Source: Salinarchaeum sp.
GTDB taxonomy: Archaea; Halobacteriota; Halobacteria; Halobacteriales; SKNY01
Assembly: GCA_007123105.1 (NCBI GenBank)
Contig: SKNY01000048.1
Location: forward strand, 1-40,188
DNA length: 40,188 nucleotides
Reading direction: 5' to 3'
Part shown: positions 3,765-35,520 of the stretch, in pieces
Layout: each line of letters opens with the position of its first letter
Position numbering within the stretch: the stretch's first letter is position 1
Program-made: the position numbers and the translations under genes
Notes under the pieces: model-generated
What the model saw: only the letters and a program-made list of their open reading frames with translations
What the model was told of the DNA's origin: nothing
The model's database searches: none

Positions 3765-5144
3765 TCAGGCTGGTGCGAGCGGGTCGTTCACAGCCCGCTT
3801 GGCGTCCGCCAGCGTCGCGGTTAATCGATCCCGGACGTCGGCGTGATCGGGGTCGGTCCCGAGATTCTCGGTCTCATGTGGATCGTTCTCCAGGTCGAAC
3901 AGCTGAACGTGAGGATCGCCAGGGCGGACGTACTCGATCAGCTTGTATCGGTCCGTGCGGACCGCGCGCTGGGTGTCGCCGAAGGCGGTGAACGCCGTCT
4001 CACGCGGGCCATCGGCGTCGTCCTCGATGACCGACACCAGGCTCTCGCCGTCGCCGGTCGCTGGTTGTGGAAACTCGAGGAGATCCGCAAGCGTTGGATA
4101 CAGATCGAAATGGTAGGTGAACGCGTCTCGGGTGATGCCTTCCGGAAGACCCGGGCCGGCAAGCACCAACGGGATCCGCACGCTGTGTTCGTAGACGTTT
4201 TGTTTGCCGAGGAGGCCGTGGCGCCCGACTGCCAGTCCGTGGTCGGCAGTGAACACCACGATGGTGTTGTCGGCGAGGCCGGTCCGTTCGAGGGTGTCGA
4301 GGATGCGGCCGACCTGCGCATCGAGGTGGGAAATGATGCCGTAGTAGTCCGCGAGATGGCGTCTGATCGTCTCCTCGTCCCGCGGGTGGGGGGCGAGATC
4401 CTCGTCGCGCGTGTGGAGGTACCCGTTGTTGATAGGATGGCCGTCGGCGACGGCGGGCGATAAGGGTAATTCGTCGGGGTCATACCGGGCGAGATACTCG
4501 CCGGGGGCCGTCCGCGGATCGTGGGGCGCCATGAACGCGCCGTACGCGAAAAAGGGCTGGTCGTCATCGGCCCGGTCGAAGAGGTGCTCACAAAGGGTGT
4601 CCGCGAAGAGCTCGCTCGAGTGGCGGCCGCTCTCGTAGCGCTCGTAGGATCGTCGCTGAGTGACGACTCCGCGTGGATCCCCTGGATCGAACCGATGGGG
4701 GCGACCGGACGGGTAGGCCTCCAGTGGACGACGGTCACAGACGGGCACGTTCCAGTGGTCGTCCATGCCACCGAAGAACACGTTCCGCCCAGCGGCGAAT
4801 GACCGGTTGAACGCTTCCTGGCCGTTGTGCCACTTGCCGGTGGCGAACGTATGATAGCCGGTGTCTGCGAGGGCTTCACCGAGACATGGATGGTCGGCCG
4901 TGATGTTCCCCGGTCCGTCGAGTCGGAACAGCGATCGGCCGCTGTGTATCATTGCCCGGGCCGGGACGCACACGGCTCCGTGTTCTGAGCCCATGTTATG
5001 CGCGCGGGTGAACGTACAGCCGTCCGCGACGAGGCGATCGAGATGTGGGGTATGGACCGGCGCGTCCGCGCACGCGCTGATTGCGTCGTAGCGAAGATCA
5101 TCGGCCACGAGAACGAGAAGATTCGGTTGGTTCTGGCTCGCCAT
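3765..5144 (-). CDS. sulfatase
   Basis: PNLLVLVADDLRYD start, CVPARAMIHSGRS (CxPxR), FTADHGLAVGRHGLLGKQNVYEHS. Start placed at MASQNQPN; ORF extends upstream to 5273. Confidence 0.88.
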   Translation of the reverse strand: MASQNQPNLLVLVADDLRYDAISACADAPVHTPHLDRLVADGCTFTRAHNMGSEHGAVCVPARAMIHSGRSLFRLDGPGNITADHPCLGEALADTGYHTFATGKWHNGQEAFNRSFAAGRNVFFGGMDDHWNVPVCDRRPLEAYPSGRPHRFDPGDPRGVVTQRRSYERYESGRHSSELFADTLCEHLFDRADDDQPFFAYGAFMAPHDPRTAPGEYLARYDPDELPLSPAVADGHPINNGYLHTRDEDLAPHPRDEETIRRHLADYYGIISHLDAQVGRILDTLERTGLADNTIVVFTADHGLAVGRHGLLGKQNVYEHSVRIPLVLAGPGLPEGITRDAFTYHFDLYPTLADLLEFPQPATGDGESLVSVIEDDADGPRETAFTAFGDTQRAVRTDRYKLIEYVRPGDPHVQLFDLENDPHETENLGTDPDHADVRDRLTATLADAKRAVNDPLAPA

Positions 5145-7217: not shown

Positions 7218-7516
7218 TGTTGAAGCGTGTTCAGAAATTCGGATGACGATCGAATACTGATAACGTTCTAATATGGGGTATCGTCCCGAATGCTGGTTGC
7301 AAATTGCGGAGGACGTGCAGCGTCTTCAGGTTGTATGTCCTCCGTCGGGCCGGAAGATCCGCCAGAGGGTGAATTCCATATTGGAGTGCGGTAACACAAC
7401 ATACGAGGCCTCGAGCGTGTGGGTTCTCATTCGCGCCCACGCTGTTATTCGTCAGATCCGCAATGGCGAACCCTTGGGCGATGGAGCTCCTTTCAGCTCA
7501 ACAGTAAGATCAATAT

Positions 7517-8557
7517 TCAGTAGGAGACACCGAGCTTGATGCTTTTCTCGGGCCGTTCATCGATCAGGCGCATCCCATCGGGCGCATCCTCGATGGGCAC
7601 GATCGGATCGAGCAATCCTTCGGCAGTGAGGTCACCGGCTCGCAATAACTCGAAGGCGGCAGTTCGGAGCCGATCGAAGCTCCACCGCGGCGCCTCGCGG
7701 TGTGGTTCGCTGGGTGGCCGCACCGACCGAAGGTCGAGTCGGTTGCGGTGCCACTCGCCCGCGAAGGCGACGTTCGTCTGATCGCCGGCGTAATAGCCAC
7801 ACGAGGCGATCGTCCCGCCGAACGCGGTCGCCCGAAGGGCGTCGTTGAGCCCGGCATACGAACCGCTCGTCTCGACGGAGACATCGACGCCGGGCCGATC
7901 GCCGGCGGTCAGTTCGTCCTTGACGAGTTCGCCTACGTCGACGTCGATCGGGTCGAGTACGCGATCGGCGCCGTGTTCGAGTGCCGCTTCCCGCCGGCGC
8001 TCGATCGGATCGGACACCCAGACGGCACTCGCCCCACCGAGGGACGCAACCTGTGCTGCCATCTGCCCGATCGCGCCGGCACCGACGACCAGCACCGTGT
8101 CGGCGACACCGATTTCGCCGATTCTGACGGCATGGAGCCCGACGCGGGCCGGGTCGGCATAGACGATCGATTCGGCGGCCATACCCGCGGGTGCCGGCGA
8201 CACGGTATCGGCAGCGACGGTGTGGGTCTCCCGGATCGGGAGGTGGCCGTACACCCGGTCACCGGGGTCGAACGCCTCGACGTCGGCCCCGACGTCACGA
8301 ACGGTTCCCACGGTCATGTTGCCGAGGGCGATCGGGTAGTCCGGCTCGGTCGTATCACCCTCGCGGTGCACGCCGGCTTCCCAGTCGAACGCAGCCGTGT
8401 AATCGCGAGTATCAGCCCGGTATCCCCGGAGCCCGGTCCCATGCTTGAAGGCGGAGAGCTCGCTCTCGATCAATAGCTCGGTAGCAGCCGGGTCCGATTG
8501 CTCGTACGTCCGGAGCGACGGGCTCCGTGGCGCCGTCGCAACGAGTGCTTGTGGCAT
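7517..8557 (-). CDS. zinc-binding alcohol dehydrogenase / MDR-family oxidoreductase
   Basis: VLVVGAGAIGQMAAQVASLGGASAVWVSDP Rossmann motif, FDPGDRVYGHLPIRETH, C-terminal EKSIKLGVSY. Confidence 0.85.
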   Translation of the reverse strand: MPQALVATAPRSPSLRTYEQSDPAATELLIESELSAFKHGTGLRGYRADTRDYTAAFDWEAGVHREGDTTEPDYPIALGNMTVGTVRDVGADVEAFDPGDRVYGHLPIRETHTVAADTVSPAPAGMAAESIVYADPARVGLHAVRIGEIGVADTVLVVGAGAIGQMAAQVASLGGASAVWVSDPIERRREAALEHGADRVLDPIDVDVGELVKDELTAGDRPGVDVSVETSGSYAGLNDALRATAFGGTIASCGYYAGDQTNVAFAGEWHRNRLDLRSVRPPSEPHREAPRWSFDRLRTAAFELLRAGDLTAEGLLDPIVPIEDAPDGMRLIDERPEKSIKLGVSY

Positions 8558-29399: not shown

Positions 29400-29966
29400 T
29401 TACTTGGTCAGCGATTCCGGGACCTCGATCGCGTACCGACCGTTTTCCTGCAGTTCGATAATACACTCACGGCGTTCATACAGCTCCATGAGGTTGAGTT
29501 CGTATTCACCGCGATCTACGATCTTGATGCTCTCGAATCGGTCCTCGAGCTGTTCCCGGAGGTCGGCCAGGTCGGGTTGAGGTTCAGGATCGGGCTCCGG
29601 ATCGTCGGGCCGTACATCACCCTGCATCGCACCAACGGCAGTCGAATTCGGCAGCTGATCCGCCGAGATTGTGGTCGATCGCGCGTCCGTCTGGGCCGGA
29701 TCCTCACCTGTCAACGTTGACCGATCATGCATCGAAGCGAGGTAGTCTGGATCGGGCTCGGCTTCGATCATGTCGTCATCGTCACCGCGCCGCAGTACGG
29801 CATCGATGAGGGATCGATCGTCCTCGCTTGAATCCTGAGGTACGGACTGTTCGACCCCGTCCGGAAGGTACTGAAACCGATTACCACCGCACTCCGGACA
29901 GCCCGACAGCATCTCGGTCGAACCATCGGGAAAACCGCGTCCGCAGTTAGTACATTCGTGGGCCAT
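29400..29966 (-). CDS. oapC: Zn-ribbon protein OapC (origin-associated)
   Basis: MAHECTNCGRGFPDGSTEMLSGCPECGGNRF plus position after OapB. An alternative GTG start at 29972 overlaps the oapB stop. Confidence 0.82.
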   Translation of the reverse strand: MAHECTNCGRGFPDGSTEMLSGCPECGGNRFQYLPDGVEQSVPQDSSEDDRSLIDAVLRRGDDDDMIEAEPDPDYLASMHDRSTLTGEDPAQTDARSTTISADQLPNSTAVGAMQGDVRPDDPEPDPEPQPDLADLREQLEDRFESIKIVDRGEYELNLMELYERRECIIELQENGRYAIEVPESLTK

Positions 29967-29968
29967 AC

Positions 29969-30355
29969 TCACGAAACGAGCGCCTTGATCAGCGTCTCGT
30001 CCTTATGGAGCGTCTCAATCCGGTTGGCCGGCCCGATAACAGTCAATTTCGAAGACGAGTCCCGGCCGATGATGCGATTGAGAATTCCGCTCGCTTCTGC
30101 ACCCGACCGTGGATAGGTCTCGATTTCGATCCCGCTGAATTCGTCCGGGCTGATCTCGCTCATCGTCACCTCGATGAGTCGGCTCTCCTCGTCAGGGCTG
30201 AGCCCGTCCTCGAGGATAACGATATTGCCTTCGTGGACGCCGTCGAGGATCATTCGAATCTTTTCCATAGTTGCCTTTGATGCCATCCGTTCGCCGCTGA
30301 TCAGGTCGATTTGAACGCCCTCGGCACCAGTTGATAATTCTGCCATCAATTTCAC
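29969..30355 (-). CDS. oapB: OapB, DUF2073 protein
   Basis: EGVQIDLISGERMASKATMEKIRMILDGVHEGNIVILEDGLSPDEESRLIEVTM; between OapA and OapC; apparent GTG start. Confidence 0.85.
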   Translation of the reverse strand: MKLMAELSTGAEGVQIDLISGERMASKATMEKIRMILDGVHEGNIVILEDGLSPDEESRLIEVTMSEISPDEFSGIEIETYPRSGAEASGILNRIIGRDSSSKLTVIGPANRIETLHKDETLIKALVS

Positions 30356-30993
30356 CCGAAGTATTCCGCAATTTTGTCGTACACCTCGTCCATGTTCTTG
30401 CCTTCGAGTGCAGAGAGGGGGACTGTTTCATGTTGAGGAAACGCGTTCGATATTCGTTGCACGCTCGAGTCCTCAAGGTCGATCTTGTTCGCGAAAATCA
30501 ACACCGGAATGTCACGGCTTTCGATGATACCGATAAGCATCGTGTTCACCTGGGTGAACGGATCCTCGGCGCTGTCGAGTACGTAGATCACACCGTCGAT
30601 ATCCTCGCGGAGCCAGTGCATCGCCTCGGCGACGCCCTCTGTTGCCTCCCGGGACCGTCGAATCGCATCTTCCTCTTCGATATCGAATTCGAGGAATTCC
30701 TGATAATCGACCTTGGTTGTTACACCTGGAGTGTCGACGATATCGATCGTTACTGTATTCCCGTTGCGTTTGATCTCTACGTTCTCTTTGCGTCGCGCGC
30801 GACGAGTTTCGTGTGGAATATGACTTTCCGGGCCGATGGCATCCCCTGTCCAATCACGTGCAATTCGATTCGAAAGAGTGGTTTTCCCGGCGTTTGGAGG
30901 CCCATAAATCCCGATCCGCTTCGGTTCTCCATCGCTGAATAAGCGATCGGTTACGTCGGTAATACTGGTGCGAATGCTGGTCAGCAGTCCCAT
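30352..30993 (-). CDS. oapA: OapA, Era-like GTPase (origin-associated)
   Basis: G1 GPPNAGKTT, G3 VDTPGV, FANKIDLED (NKxD); start MGLLTSIRTSITDVTDRLFSDGEPKRIGIYG. Confidence 0.9.
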   Translation of the reverse strand: MGLLTSIRTSITDVTDRLFSDGEPKRIGIYGPPNAGKTTLSNRIARDWTGDAIGPESHIPHETRRARRKENVEIKRNGNTVTIDIVDTPGVTTKVDYQEFLEFDIEEEDAIRRSREATEGVAEAMHWLREDIDGVIYVLDSAEDPFTQVNTMLIGIIESRDIPVLIFANKIDLEDSSVQRISNAFPQHETVPLSALEGKNMDEVYDKIAEYFG

Positions 30994-31171
30994 AGAATCA
31001 CCATCCGACACTCGCGGGCTTGCATACGGTCGTCCACGTAAAGTTTCGACATAAGGTTACGTCAGACGTTCGTCAGACGGATCACGGTTCGAGTTCGATT
31101 ATCTTGTCAATGGATGTACTCCGAGAATATAGCTGGAGTAAGCCGTGTGATCGGTGACGACTGGGGAACGA

Positions 31172-31196
31172 CCCCGACCCCTCTATTTCGGGTGGA
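31172..31196 (-). promoter_or_regulatory. origin recognition box (ORB), haloarchaeal type with G-string
   Basis: Reverse strand TCCACCCGAAATAGAGGGGTCGGGG; aligns without gaps to the box at 31362-31386. Confidence 0.8.
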
Positions 31197-31199
31197 ACG

Positions 31200-31361
31200 G
31201 AATGAACCACCAACCCGCCTAGTTGTGTCAAATAACCCTAGTTAACATCAATTCGTTGGTGTGGATAAATCGAGTTTCCCACTAAGGATATTGTTCTGAT
31301 TATATCCTAATAGCTGTTTTGGTTGTAGTTTAGGTCGATTTGGTGGTAGTAGGTTCTACCC
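31200..31361. other. candidate duplex unwinding element of the replication origin
   Basis: A+T-rich stretch (hand count about 61% A+T over 31201-31350) between two inverted ORBs in otherwise GC-rich sequence. Confidence 0.7.
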
Positions 31362-31386
31362 TCCAGTGGAAATGAAGGGGTGGGGG
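31362..31386 (+). promoter_or_regulatory. origin recognition box (ORB), haloarchaeal type with G-string
   Basis: TCCAGTGGAAATGAAGGGGTGGGGG, inverted relative to the 31172-31196 box. Confidence 0.85.
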
Positions 31387-31747
31387 CCGGGTTGGACAGA
31401 GTACAAACGCCATAACCCTGTTTGACTCGAACAAATTGGATGTGTGTCGAACCCTACCGGTATCCTATGCTCATCGGCCATATACGGGGTGTAAGCGGTG
31501 GTCTCTCCCGGATACAGCCCTGTATGGAATCAGTTATGGTCAGATTAAGGGAATTATCGGCCGATGTGTACGCACAGGAACATGCCAACAGTGGAGGAAA
31601 GAATTTAAGACCCTCCTGTACCCTTCCTTCGTCTGCACTCGGCCACTGGGGATGGGAACGTCGCACGGGGAATGGGGACCGATGCGACACCGGTGGACGT
31701 GAGATCGGAGCGGCTGCGCTGGCGCACACCAGGGGATGGTACGACAC

Positions 31748-33265
31748 ATGACGATACCACATTCGGACGACGACACCGAATTCCGCCGTGGGGCGGCTAG
31801 TTCGAGCGCGTTGGATCCGTTTGAAGGGCTAACGCCTGCAAACGATGCAACTGAGGAATCAAGTGACGGACTCTTTGATGATATTCTCAGTGGAGATCCA
31901 ATCTTTACTAATAAGGAGGTGTTGCGTCCATCGTATACACCCGATGAACTTCCGCATCGGTCGGATCAGATCAACAACATGGCAACGATCCTCGTATCGG
32001 CCTTGCGTGGCCAAACTCCCTCCAATATCCTGATTTACGGCAAAACTGGGACCGGCAAAACTGCGAGCGCAAAGTACGTCAGTCAGGAACTTGAGCGGAC
32101 GTCGCAGCGATATCGCGTACCCTGTGCGGTGCATTACATCAATTGTGAGGTGACTGATACGCAGTATCGCGTCCTCGCACAACTCGCAAACTCCTTTCAG
32201 GACGATAATGAGCGGCTCATCGAACAAGCGATTGAACTCGCACGTACGGACGATCCGATAGCGGGCGACGGGGAGGACGAGCGACGGACCGCAATCGCGG
32301 AGTTCATGCGCGATCGCAACCTCCTCAGTGCCTCCGCCGACGAACAGATCGACGCCTTGCAATCGTATCGCAGTTCCCTGGCGCAGGTCCCCATGACCGG
32401 CTGGCCGACTGATCGAGTCTACGAGGAGTTTTTCAACGCGGTTGATTTTGCCGAGCGCGTGGTCGTCATCATGCTCGACGAGATCGACAAGCTCGTCGAA
32501 AAATCCGGGGATGATACCCTCTATAACCTCTCCCGAATGAACTCGTCGCTCACGCGCTCAAAGGTGTCAATTATCGGTATTTCCAACGACTTAAAATTCA
32601 CAGACTTCCTCGATCCCCGCGTCAAATCCAGTCTTGGCGAGGAAGAAATCGTCTTTCCACCGTACGACGCGAACCAACTCCGCGATATTCTCGAGCACCG
32701 CGCGCGTCATTCTTTCGTCGACGGAGCGCTATCCGAGGACGTTATTCCGTTATGTGCGGCATTTGCAGCCCAGGAACACGGCGATGCCCGACGGGCGCTG
32801 GATCTGCTTCGAACCGCGGGCGAACTCGCCGAACGAAGTCAGGACGATCTGGTGTGTGAAGGTCACGTTCGTGATGCCCAGGAGAAGATCGAACTCGACC
32901 GCGTGGTCGAAGTAGTTCGCACGTTACCGGCACAGTCGAAAATCGTCCTCTATGCGATTATCACGCTCGAACAACGCGGTGCCCGGAGCGTCAACACTGG
33001 TGAGGTATTCAACGTATACAAGCACCTCTGTGGAGAAATTGACGCCGACGTACTCACTCAACGTCGGGTAAGTGACTTGATCAGCGAACTCGACATGCTC
33101 GGGATCGTCAACGCCGTCGTTGTGAGCAAGGGTCGGTACGGTCGGACCAAGGAGATCAACCTCTCGGTCCCGGTCGCCAACACCGAAGCGGTGTTGGTCA
33201 CCGATTCGCGGTTGAGCGACCTCGAGGAGGTCGAACCCTCCTTTCAGACGCATTTCGAGCTTTGA
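31748..33265 (+). CDS. orc1: Orc1/Cdc6 replication initiator
   Basis: AAA+ Walker A IYGKTGTGKTASAKYV, Walker B VVIMLDEIDKLVE, SNDLKFTDFLDPRVKSSLGEEEIVFPPYDANQLRDIL, C-terminal winged helix. Start MTIPHSDDD chosen; ORF extends to 31736. Confidence 0.97.
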   Translation: MTIPHSDDDTEFRRGAASSSALDPFEGLTPANDATEESSDGLFDDILSGDPIFTNKEVLRPSYTPDELPHRSDQINNMATILVSALRGQTPSNILIYGKTGTGKTASAKYVSQELERTSQRYRVPCAVHYINCEVTDTQYRVLAQLANSFQDDNERLIEQAIELARTDDPIAGDGEDERRTAIAEFMRDRNLLSASADEQIDALQSYRSSLAQVPMTGWPTDRVYEEFFNAVDFAERVVVIMLDEIDKLVEKSGDDTLYNLSRMNSSLTRSKVSIIGISNDLKFTDFLDPRVKSSLGEEEIVFPPYDANQLRDILEHRARHSFVDGALSEDVIPLCAAFAAQEHGDARRALDLLRTAGELAERSQDDLVCEGHVRDAQEKIELDRVVEVVRTLPAQSKIVLYAIITLEQRGARSVNTGEVFNVYKHLCGEIDADVLTQRRVSDLISELDMLGIVNAVVVSKGRYGRTKEINLSVPVANTEAVLVTDSRLSDLEEVEPSFQTHFEL

Positions 33266-33973
33266 TTATCCGATGAGCAAACCGACTCCCGACATCGCAA
33301 CCACATCATCTACGAAGAGTCTGATCCTACCCAGGAATGGAACCCGAAGTTCGGCCCGCGCAATAACCCAATCGGCTTTGACCGGCGCACTATTACCACC
33401 GATCTGGTCATAGGTCGCGGTGTTATCCCCGTGGGTGATGAATCCGTCGTGGGGTGCTGGACAATTAGAGATCGCATCACAATTACTCATACCGCCCATT
33501 CGTGTGGGATTCGCCCGCTCGGTCCAGTCCTCACCTTCCTCGACGTAAAACTTGGCGCGATGGATAATCGGGGTTCGTTCGAAGTTTCCGTCCGGTGCGA
33601 AAATGATCACATCGCCGGCGTCACCGAAGGACGTCGACCCGTTTTCGGCGGCGCGATCTCCCGGTACGATCCCGGTTCCATTTATGGCATGCTCCCCGGC
33701 GAATCGATCCGGTTCGACGATGAACACCAAATCACCGGTCATGATATTCGGTTCCATACTATCGCTTTCGACGGCTACGAGCGGGGGCCACACTCCGCTC
33801 ATCGAGAAGAGCAATCCGGCGATCGCTAGCACGATGACGACGCTGATCGCGATTTCACGGACGATCGCGACAGTCGCATGATCGGTATGCCATCCCCAGT
33901 TGATCCAGTCGCGGACCCCACGATCGGAACGTTCTGCGGCGCTGACCCGCTCGGGGTCCTCCGACCCTCTCAT
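33266..33973 (-). CDS. signal peptidase I (archaeal)
   Basis: VAVESDSMEPNIMTGDLVFIVEPDRF, GDVIIFAPDG, IIHRAKFYVEEGEDW, FITHGDNTATYDQ; N-terminal TM. Confidence 0.9.
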   Translation of the reverse strand: MRGSEDPERVSAAERSDRGVRDWINWGWHTDHATVAIVREIAISVVIVLAIAGLLFSMSGVWPPLVAVESDSMEPNIMTGDLVFIVEPDRFAGEHAINGTGIVPGDRAAENGSTSFGDAGDVIIFAPDGNFERTPIIHRAKFYVEEGEDWTERANPTRMGGMSNCDAISNCPAPHDGFITHGDNTATYDQIGGNSAPVKADWVIARAELRVPFLGRIRLFVDDVVAMSGVGLLIG

Positions 33974-34062
33974 CGGTTTCTGTAGCGGGCGTTGCACTTT
34001 GAATCTCGCGGTTACGACGGCGTTCAATACTCTTATTTTCTGATCGGACGTCGGCAGTACTC

Positions 34063-35520
34063 GTGGCACACGCGGCGACAGAAGCGATCGTCCATCGGCT
34101 CCTCGAGCGCGGGTACAACGTCGCGCCGGCTGCTGCCGCCAGAATCGCCGGTGCTGACGATCCAGAGCGCATCCTCGAGGCCGTGCTCGCGTCCGTCTCT
34201 GAGGACGTGCTCTGTATCACGCCCGGGCACGTCGAGGCGGCCATCGATAACCCCCTCGTTTCGGGTGGAGACGATACAAACTACGCACCTCGTCGGGCGC
34301 GTAGCGACCGGCCTGTAGATCCCATCGGTATCGTCGGTGACGTTACCGGGCAGAGCACGTGTACCGGCGAATATGGGGATTTCGTCGCACTGTTCCGCGA
34401 TCGGTACGATCAGCTTGCCGGACTATTACGGGGCCGGATTACGCATCGAAACGCCCGATCGTTGGCCGATGCCCGGGGTGGCTCAGAGGTCGGCATGATC
34501 GGGATGGTCGCGGACGTCCGCTCCACTCGAAATGGTCACTGGCTGGTCGAACTCGAGGATCCGACCGGTGCGTTTCCGGCCCTGTTGATGAGTGACCGAG
34601 ACATCGCCGCAGACGCACAGGGCTTGCTGTACGACGAGGTCATCGGGGTTTCCGGGCGATTGTCCGACGATGCTGGGATTATCTTCGTTGAAGATCTCTA
34701 TCTACCGGACGTCCCGCGAACGTTCGAACCGAACACCGCCGATCGGCACGTCCAAGCCGCCTTGATCAGCGACGTCCACGTCGGGAGCAAGGAGTTTTTA
34801 GCTGAGGCCTGGGACGACTTTTCGGCATGGCTTCACTCGCCCGAGGCCGAGCCGGTCGAGTATCTGGTCATTGCCGGTGACATGGTCGAGGGTGTGGGGG
34901 TCTATCCAGGTCAGGAACACGACTTGGCAATCGAGGATGTGTATGCACAGTATCGGCGATTCGCAGAGCTGTTAAAACAAGTTCCTGGAGACCTGGAGAT
35001 CGTGATGATCCCCGGAAACCACGATGCAGTCCGGCTTGCCGAGCCACAGCCGGCCTTCACAGACGAGATCGCTGACATCCTTGCCGTCCACGACGCACAC
35101 ATCACCGCGAACCCTTCGACCGTCTCGCTCGAAGGCGTGAACATCCTCGTCTATCACGGCGCATCACTCGACGAGGTCATCGCGTCGGTACCCGACGAAG
35201 ACGTCGCCTACGCCAATCCGGATCGGGCAATGGCTGAATTACTGCGCAAGCGCCATGTCGCGCCCCAGTACGGCGGGCGGATCCGTATCGCGCCGGAAGA
35301 ACGAGACTATCTCGTGATCGAGGACGTTCCTGACGTCTTTCACACGGGGCACGTTCATACGATCGGGGTCGGTACCTACCACGGTGTTCGGCTGATTAAT
35401 AGCGGGTGCTGGCAAGCCCAAACCGACTTCCAACGACGAAACAATCTCGATCCGGACCCCGGCTTCGCACCGATTATCGATCTCGATACGCTCGACGTGA
35501 AACTCCGGAAGTTCGTCTAA
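34063..35520 (+). CDS. DNA polymerase D small subunit (DP1, exonuclease subunit)
   Basis: GTG start; LISDVHVGSKEF, YLVIAGDMVEGVGVYPGQE, IVMIPGNHDAVR, DVFHTGHVHTIGVGTYHGVRLINSGCWQAQTDFQ. Confidence 0.95.
   Translation: MAHAATEAIVHRLLERGYNVAPAAAARIAGADDPERILEAVLASVSEDVLCITPGHVEAAIDNPLVSGGDDTNYAPRRARSDRPVDPIGIVGDVTGQSTCTGEYGDFVALFRDRYDQLAGLLRGRITHRNARSLADARGGSEVGMIGMVADVRSTRNGHWLVELEDPTGAFPALLMSDRDIAADAQGLLYDEVIGVSGRLSDDAGIIFVEDLYLPDVPRTFEPNTADRHVQAALISDVHVGSKEFLAEAWDDFSAWLHSPEAEPVEYLVIAGDMVEGVGVYPGQEHDLAIEDVYAQYRRFAELLKQVPGDLEIVMIPGNHDAVRLAEPQPAFTDEIADILAVHDAHITANPSTVSLEGVNILVYHGASLDEVIASVPDEDVAYANPDRAMAELLRKRHVAPQYGGRIRIAPEERDYLVIEDVPDVFHTGHVHTIGVGTYHGVRLINSGCWQAQTDFQRRNNLDPDPGFAPIIDLDTLDVKLRKFV

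Follow-up and report, generated by a model that had tools for sequence, protein, structure and literature searches.

The analysed window, a whole contig of 40,188 nucleotides from Salinarchaeum sp. (SKNY01000048.1, here C121), very probably includes at positions 31172–31386 the oriC1 of this organism, that is, the ancestral origin, linked to orc1, from which the main chromosome of haloarchaea is replicated. The identification was made because an inverted ORB pair of the same kind is present in 60 other haloarchaeal loci, and because the pair is accompanied by orc1 and the usual gene neighbourhood. The assembly comprises 1.88 Mb in 122 contigs and is 67% complete, and the genomes searched included one other genome of the same genus (G001).

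The two ORBs were found at the positions and on the strands given by the initial annotation, the left one (TCCACCCGAAATAGAGGGGTCGGGG) on the minus strand at 31172–31196 and the right one (TCCAGTGGAAATGAAGGGGTGGGGG) on the plus strand at 31362–31386. They match each other without gaps at 19 of 25 positions, in inverted orientation and with 165 bp between them. Both include extended halophile-specific G-strings at their outer ends (GGGGTCGGGG and GGGGTGGGGG), that of the left ORB pointing away from the A+T-rich element. The interval between the ORBs (31197–31361), a candidate DNA unwinding element, had rightly been described as A+T-rich, but the proportion of about 61% obtained by hand count was 59.4% when computed. 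The average A+T content of the window is 38%, and among all 165-bp windows along the 40 kb the maximum starts at 31212.

A position weight matrix constructed from 120 ORBs of the 60 other haloarchaeal loci, with the window left out, gave 29.4 bits for the left and 31.1 bits for the right ORB. The third match in the 40-kb window scored 15.8 bits (34244–34270) and the fourth -15.5 bits, and in 200 simulated 40-kb sequences the maxima had a mean of -9.5 bits (sd 4.5) and a top value of 8.7 bits. The exact consensus TCCANNNGAAANNNAGGGGNNGGGG was present in the 1.88-Mb assembly only in the two ORBs; with three mismatches allowed, four further sites were found in the assembly and two in the reversed control. 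The simulation and the whole-assembly search rule out a chance match of the ORB pair. Within the family the ORBs of the window belong to the low-scoring end, with 29–31 bits against a median of 44.7 and a minimum of 28.7.

Conservation of oriC1 extends to all the haloarchaea that have been examined (PMC3528665). In the 60 other loci, detected with at most four mismatches in the pair and drawn from two collections so that some of them may share species, the pair is situated upstream of orc1 with the minus-strand box upstream, the plus-strand box downstream and the G-strings outward. The spacing of the ORBs ranges from 183 to 363 bp (median 228) and is 190 bp in the window, and the median A+T content of the interval across the other loci is 50%. 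Also the sister genome (L117) includes the inverted pair, at 4143–4169 (minus) and 4326–4352 (plus). Three genomes of about 1 Mb belonging to the same order (L118, L119 and L120) have an oriC1 interval with 84–86% A+T and one ORB without the extended G-string.

In Haloarcula hispanica an A+T-rich region flanked by two ORBs in inverted orientation makes up the minimal oriC1, both G-strings are essential, and an inner G-rich inverted repeat enhances the origin (PMC3936714). The inner repeat is absent from the interval of the window, where the longest runs are of 3 G and 2 C. A replacement repeat in the interval, ACCACCAA/TTGGTGGT, was rejected, being only 8 bp long and by our own estimate at about chance level. 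With a simple run criterion, 37 of the 60 loci have the inner repeat on both sides, 13 have it on a single side and 10 lack it altogether. The repeat, a non-essential enhancer, is no defining feature of oriC1, since ten of the 60 other loci are also without it.

The ORB pair adjoins a member of the universally conserved Orc1 family. The orc1/cdc6 initiator gene (31736–33265, plus strand, 509 aa, with a second in-frame ATG at 31748) is recognised by TIGR02928 and by NF001625 (ORC1-type DNA replication protein; 648.6 bits, cut-off 501), the closest solved relatives of its product are chains of 2qby and 2v1u, and its top match in the relatives is of the single-copy type. On the other side of the pair, on the minus strand, lie an Era/Der-like GTPase gene (30352–31011; MMR_HSR1, small_GTP), kept beside orc1 in relatives and inferred from its position to be oapA, and the genes of the origin-associated proteins OapB (29969–30355; PF09846, E 2.6e-40) and OapC (29400–29972; PF09845, E 1.8e-27). 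Downstream of orc1 follow a signal peptidase I-like gene (33266–34069, minus strand; TIGR02228, E 7e-12, just under the cut-off), found in the same place in relatives, and dp1, encoding the small subunit of DNA polymerase D (34063–35520, plus strand; NF003116, 747.5 bits, cut-off 425). The order oapA–oapB–oapC, orc1, signal peptidase and dp1 is that of the relatives. The protein families, the gene order and the recurrence of the arrangement in the 60 loci all bear out the original assignment to oriC1. The points against it are the missing inner repeat, the ORB scores, which are among the lowest of the family, and the cumulative GC skew over the window, which has no clear turn at 31.3 kb and was uninformative.

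Judged from characterised origins, Orc1 would bind both ORBs flanking the A+T-rich element, with its winged helix on the ORB core and its AAA+ domain on the G-string. The A+T-rich element would then open, Orc1 would recruit MCM for loading, and bidirectional replication would start in the ORB-flanked interval.

The element could also be an oriC1 by descent that is dormant or minor, with most initiation taking place at a different origin, which might lie on a contig missing from the assembly. The incompleteness of the assembly leaves room for this, the inner enhancer repeat and the orc1-proximal box are absent, and according to PMC4595724 dormant origins are known in haloarchaea. However, the window has retained both ORBs with their G-strings, the A+T-rich element between them and an orc1 gene that is intact, oriC1 is the most active origin of Haloferax volcanii (PMC7776575), and the other orc genes of the assembly were found without ORBs nearby, so that a dormant or minor role appears unlikely. 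These two other orc/cdc6-like genes had no oriC1-type ORB in their vicinity, the best motif scores being -17.4 (L125) and -4.8 (L126). The first (contig C109) overlaps its neighbouring gene and has no ORB, and the second (contig C114), located near an integrase-like gene, has weak motif matches and no useful repeats. Judging by these scans, neither gene is likely to belong to an origin of the oriC1 type, which fits with the inference of the initial annotation that the ORB pair marks the main active origin of the replicon, without being proof of it.

The third-best motif match of the window is an ORB core, CTCCACCCGAAACGAGGGGGT, that has no extended G-string and is located inside dp1 (34250–34270, minus strand) in the codons AAC CCC CTC GTT TCG GGT GGA. 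When the scan was extended beyond the intergenic region, the relatives were found to have an inverted pair of ORB cores in the N-terminal linker of dp1; both boxes are present in the sister genome, at 7431–7457 (minus) and 7491–7517 (plus), and in the window the plus-strand partner has been lost. The exact gapped pattern of the dp1 pair occurs in 122 of the 295 genomes of the order, representing 42 of 88 genera, with no matches in the reversed control. The pair was confirmed inside dp1 in 29 of 30 fetched loci (L163–L192), always in the same frame and with a gap of about 38 bp. A second origin is an unlikely explanation of the pair, the gap being only this long and the extended G-string absent. 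Among the papers searched, none was found that describes ORBs in dp1.

The dp1 motif might be a mere by-product of the conserved protein motif DPSVSTG...SPVETKGS and no DNA site at all, as the constant reading frame and the conserved amino acids would allow. This is rather improbable, since the synonymous choice has been fixed on rare codons: GTT in 19 of 19 cases (background 8%), GGA in 19 of 19 (11%), ACT in 13 of 13 (7%) and CCA in 19 of 20 (9%), together with GAA (19 of 20, background 27%) and GGG (19 of 20, 23%). The positions compared were chosen by the protein motif alone. Since the sequences are related, binomial values overstate how significant the bias is. A comparison within dp1 served as internal control: among its 254 conserved codon columns, the five with the strongest bias were all box columns. 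Both boxes also match the ORB core of the origin and are inverted. Because of the rare synonymous codons and the five most biased columns, the dp1 boxes seem to be maintained by selection on the DNA itself. The single core in the window is no origin and is most likely the remaining half of a conserved, putative Orc1-binding control or titration site.

Satellite cores were also found elsewhere. Upstream of orc1, 58 of 71 haloarchaeal loci have an ORB core that lacks the extended G-string. In most of these loci the core ends about 5–25 bases before a start codon (e.g. L011, L017, L089 and L101), and neither the window nor the sister genome has it. This core may already be included among the intergenic ORBs listed in the supplements of PMC3528665. 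In its position it looks like an autoregulatory site. Leaderless mRNA is usual in haloarchaea, and if the orc1 mRNA is leaderless, Orc1 bound at the core would be expected to block its own transcription. Having neither this third ORB core nor the inner repeat, the oriC1 of the window is a stripped-down form.

A search of 15 relatives, with at most one mismatch allowed, detected 4 to 10 ORB cores in each genome, against one match from all the reversed controls together. Many of these cores are within about 50 kb of oriC1, and the distal ones looked at are mostly intergenic. In three genomes from two families (L203, L205 and L210) an isolated core was located a short distance downstream of a gene for a Hel308-type helicase, some 20–40 kb from oriC1. 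Several Natrialbaceae-type genomes (L039, L040, L041, L043 and L044) have a core in a long insertion of orc1, about 530–670 bases past the aligned start of the gene.

That the two boxes of the window are operators for the divergent oapA and orc1, and no origin, would agree with their location between divergent genes and with the core adjoining the orc1 start codon in relatives, but it is highly improbable, as the boxes are about 350–560 bp from the orc1 start and around the A+T peak, and bear the extended G-strings that are essential for oriC1 replication (PMC3936714) and that the likely control boxes of relatives do not have.

The satellite set around oriC1 comprises one box at the start codon of orc1, the inverted dp1 pair and sometimes others, e.g. 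near hel308, none with an origin-type G-string. Cores without the extended G-string would, less certainly than the steps at the origin itself, bind Orc1 without firing, and would regulate either the availability of Orc1 or the transcription of orc1 and dp1. The balance tips slightly towards conserved satellite Orc1 boxes around oriC1 that bind without firing and tie the level of the initiator and the expression of the replicative polymerase to initiation, in the manner of datA and the dnaA-promoter boxes of bacteria; as part of the same reading, the window would have retained the origin and lost most of the satellites.

Taken as an origin, the element is nothing unusual, a further oriC1 that is of use as a reference for an uncultured family of haloarchaea. 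The satellite boxes matter more than the origin itself and are the part worth following. With boxes conserved as DNA in dp1 and at the start codon of orc1, synonymous recoding in Haloferax volcanii or Haloarcula hispanica would give direct access to initiator titration and to autoregulation at this ancestral origin of archaea.

In comparison with known systems, the window shares with oriC1-cdc6A of H. hispanica, and with the haloarchaeal oriC1 family in general, the ORB pair with G-strings, the A+T-rich region, orc1/cdc6 downstream and the location among replication genes. It differs from the H. hispanica origin in having no inner G-rich inverted repeat, and from the family in that its ORBs are at the weak end and no ORB core is present at the orc1 start. 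The Escherichia coli datA and dnaA-promoter boxes, as cited in PMC3936714, resemble the arrangement of the relatives in that initiator boxes are present away from the origin, those of the dnaA promoter also just upstream of the start codon of the initiator gene. However, archaeal Orc1 and the ORB are unrelated to DnaA, making this an analogy only, and the window itself has no box at the start of orc1. The nearest precedent for the satellite boxes would be oriC2D of H. hispanica, an ORB cluster downstream of oriC2-cdc6E that restrains oriC2, likely by titration (PMC3936714). In both cases extra ORB-type boxes lie beyond the initiator gene as seen from the origin, and are no part of the origin itself. 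The dp1 boxes differ from oriC2D in belonging to oriC1, in being located in coding sequence and in their form, as relatives have a compact inverted pair and the window a single box. Like oriC2D and datA, the dp1 box is of the initiator type and outside the origin, and its conservation is at the level of the DNA.
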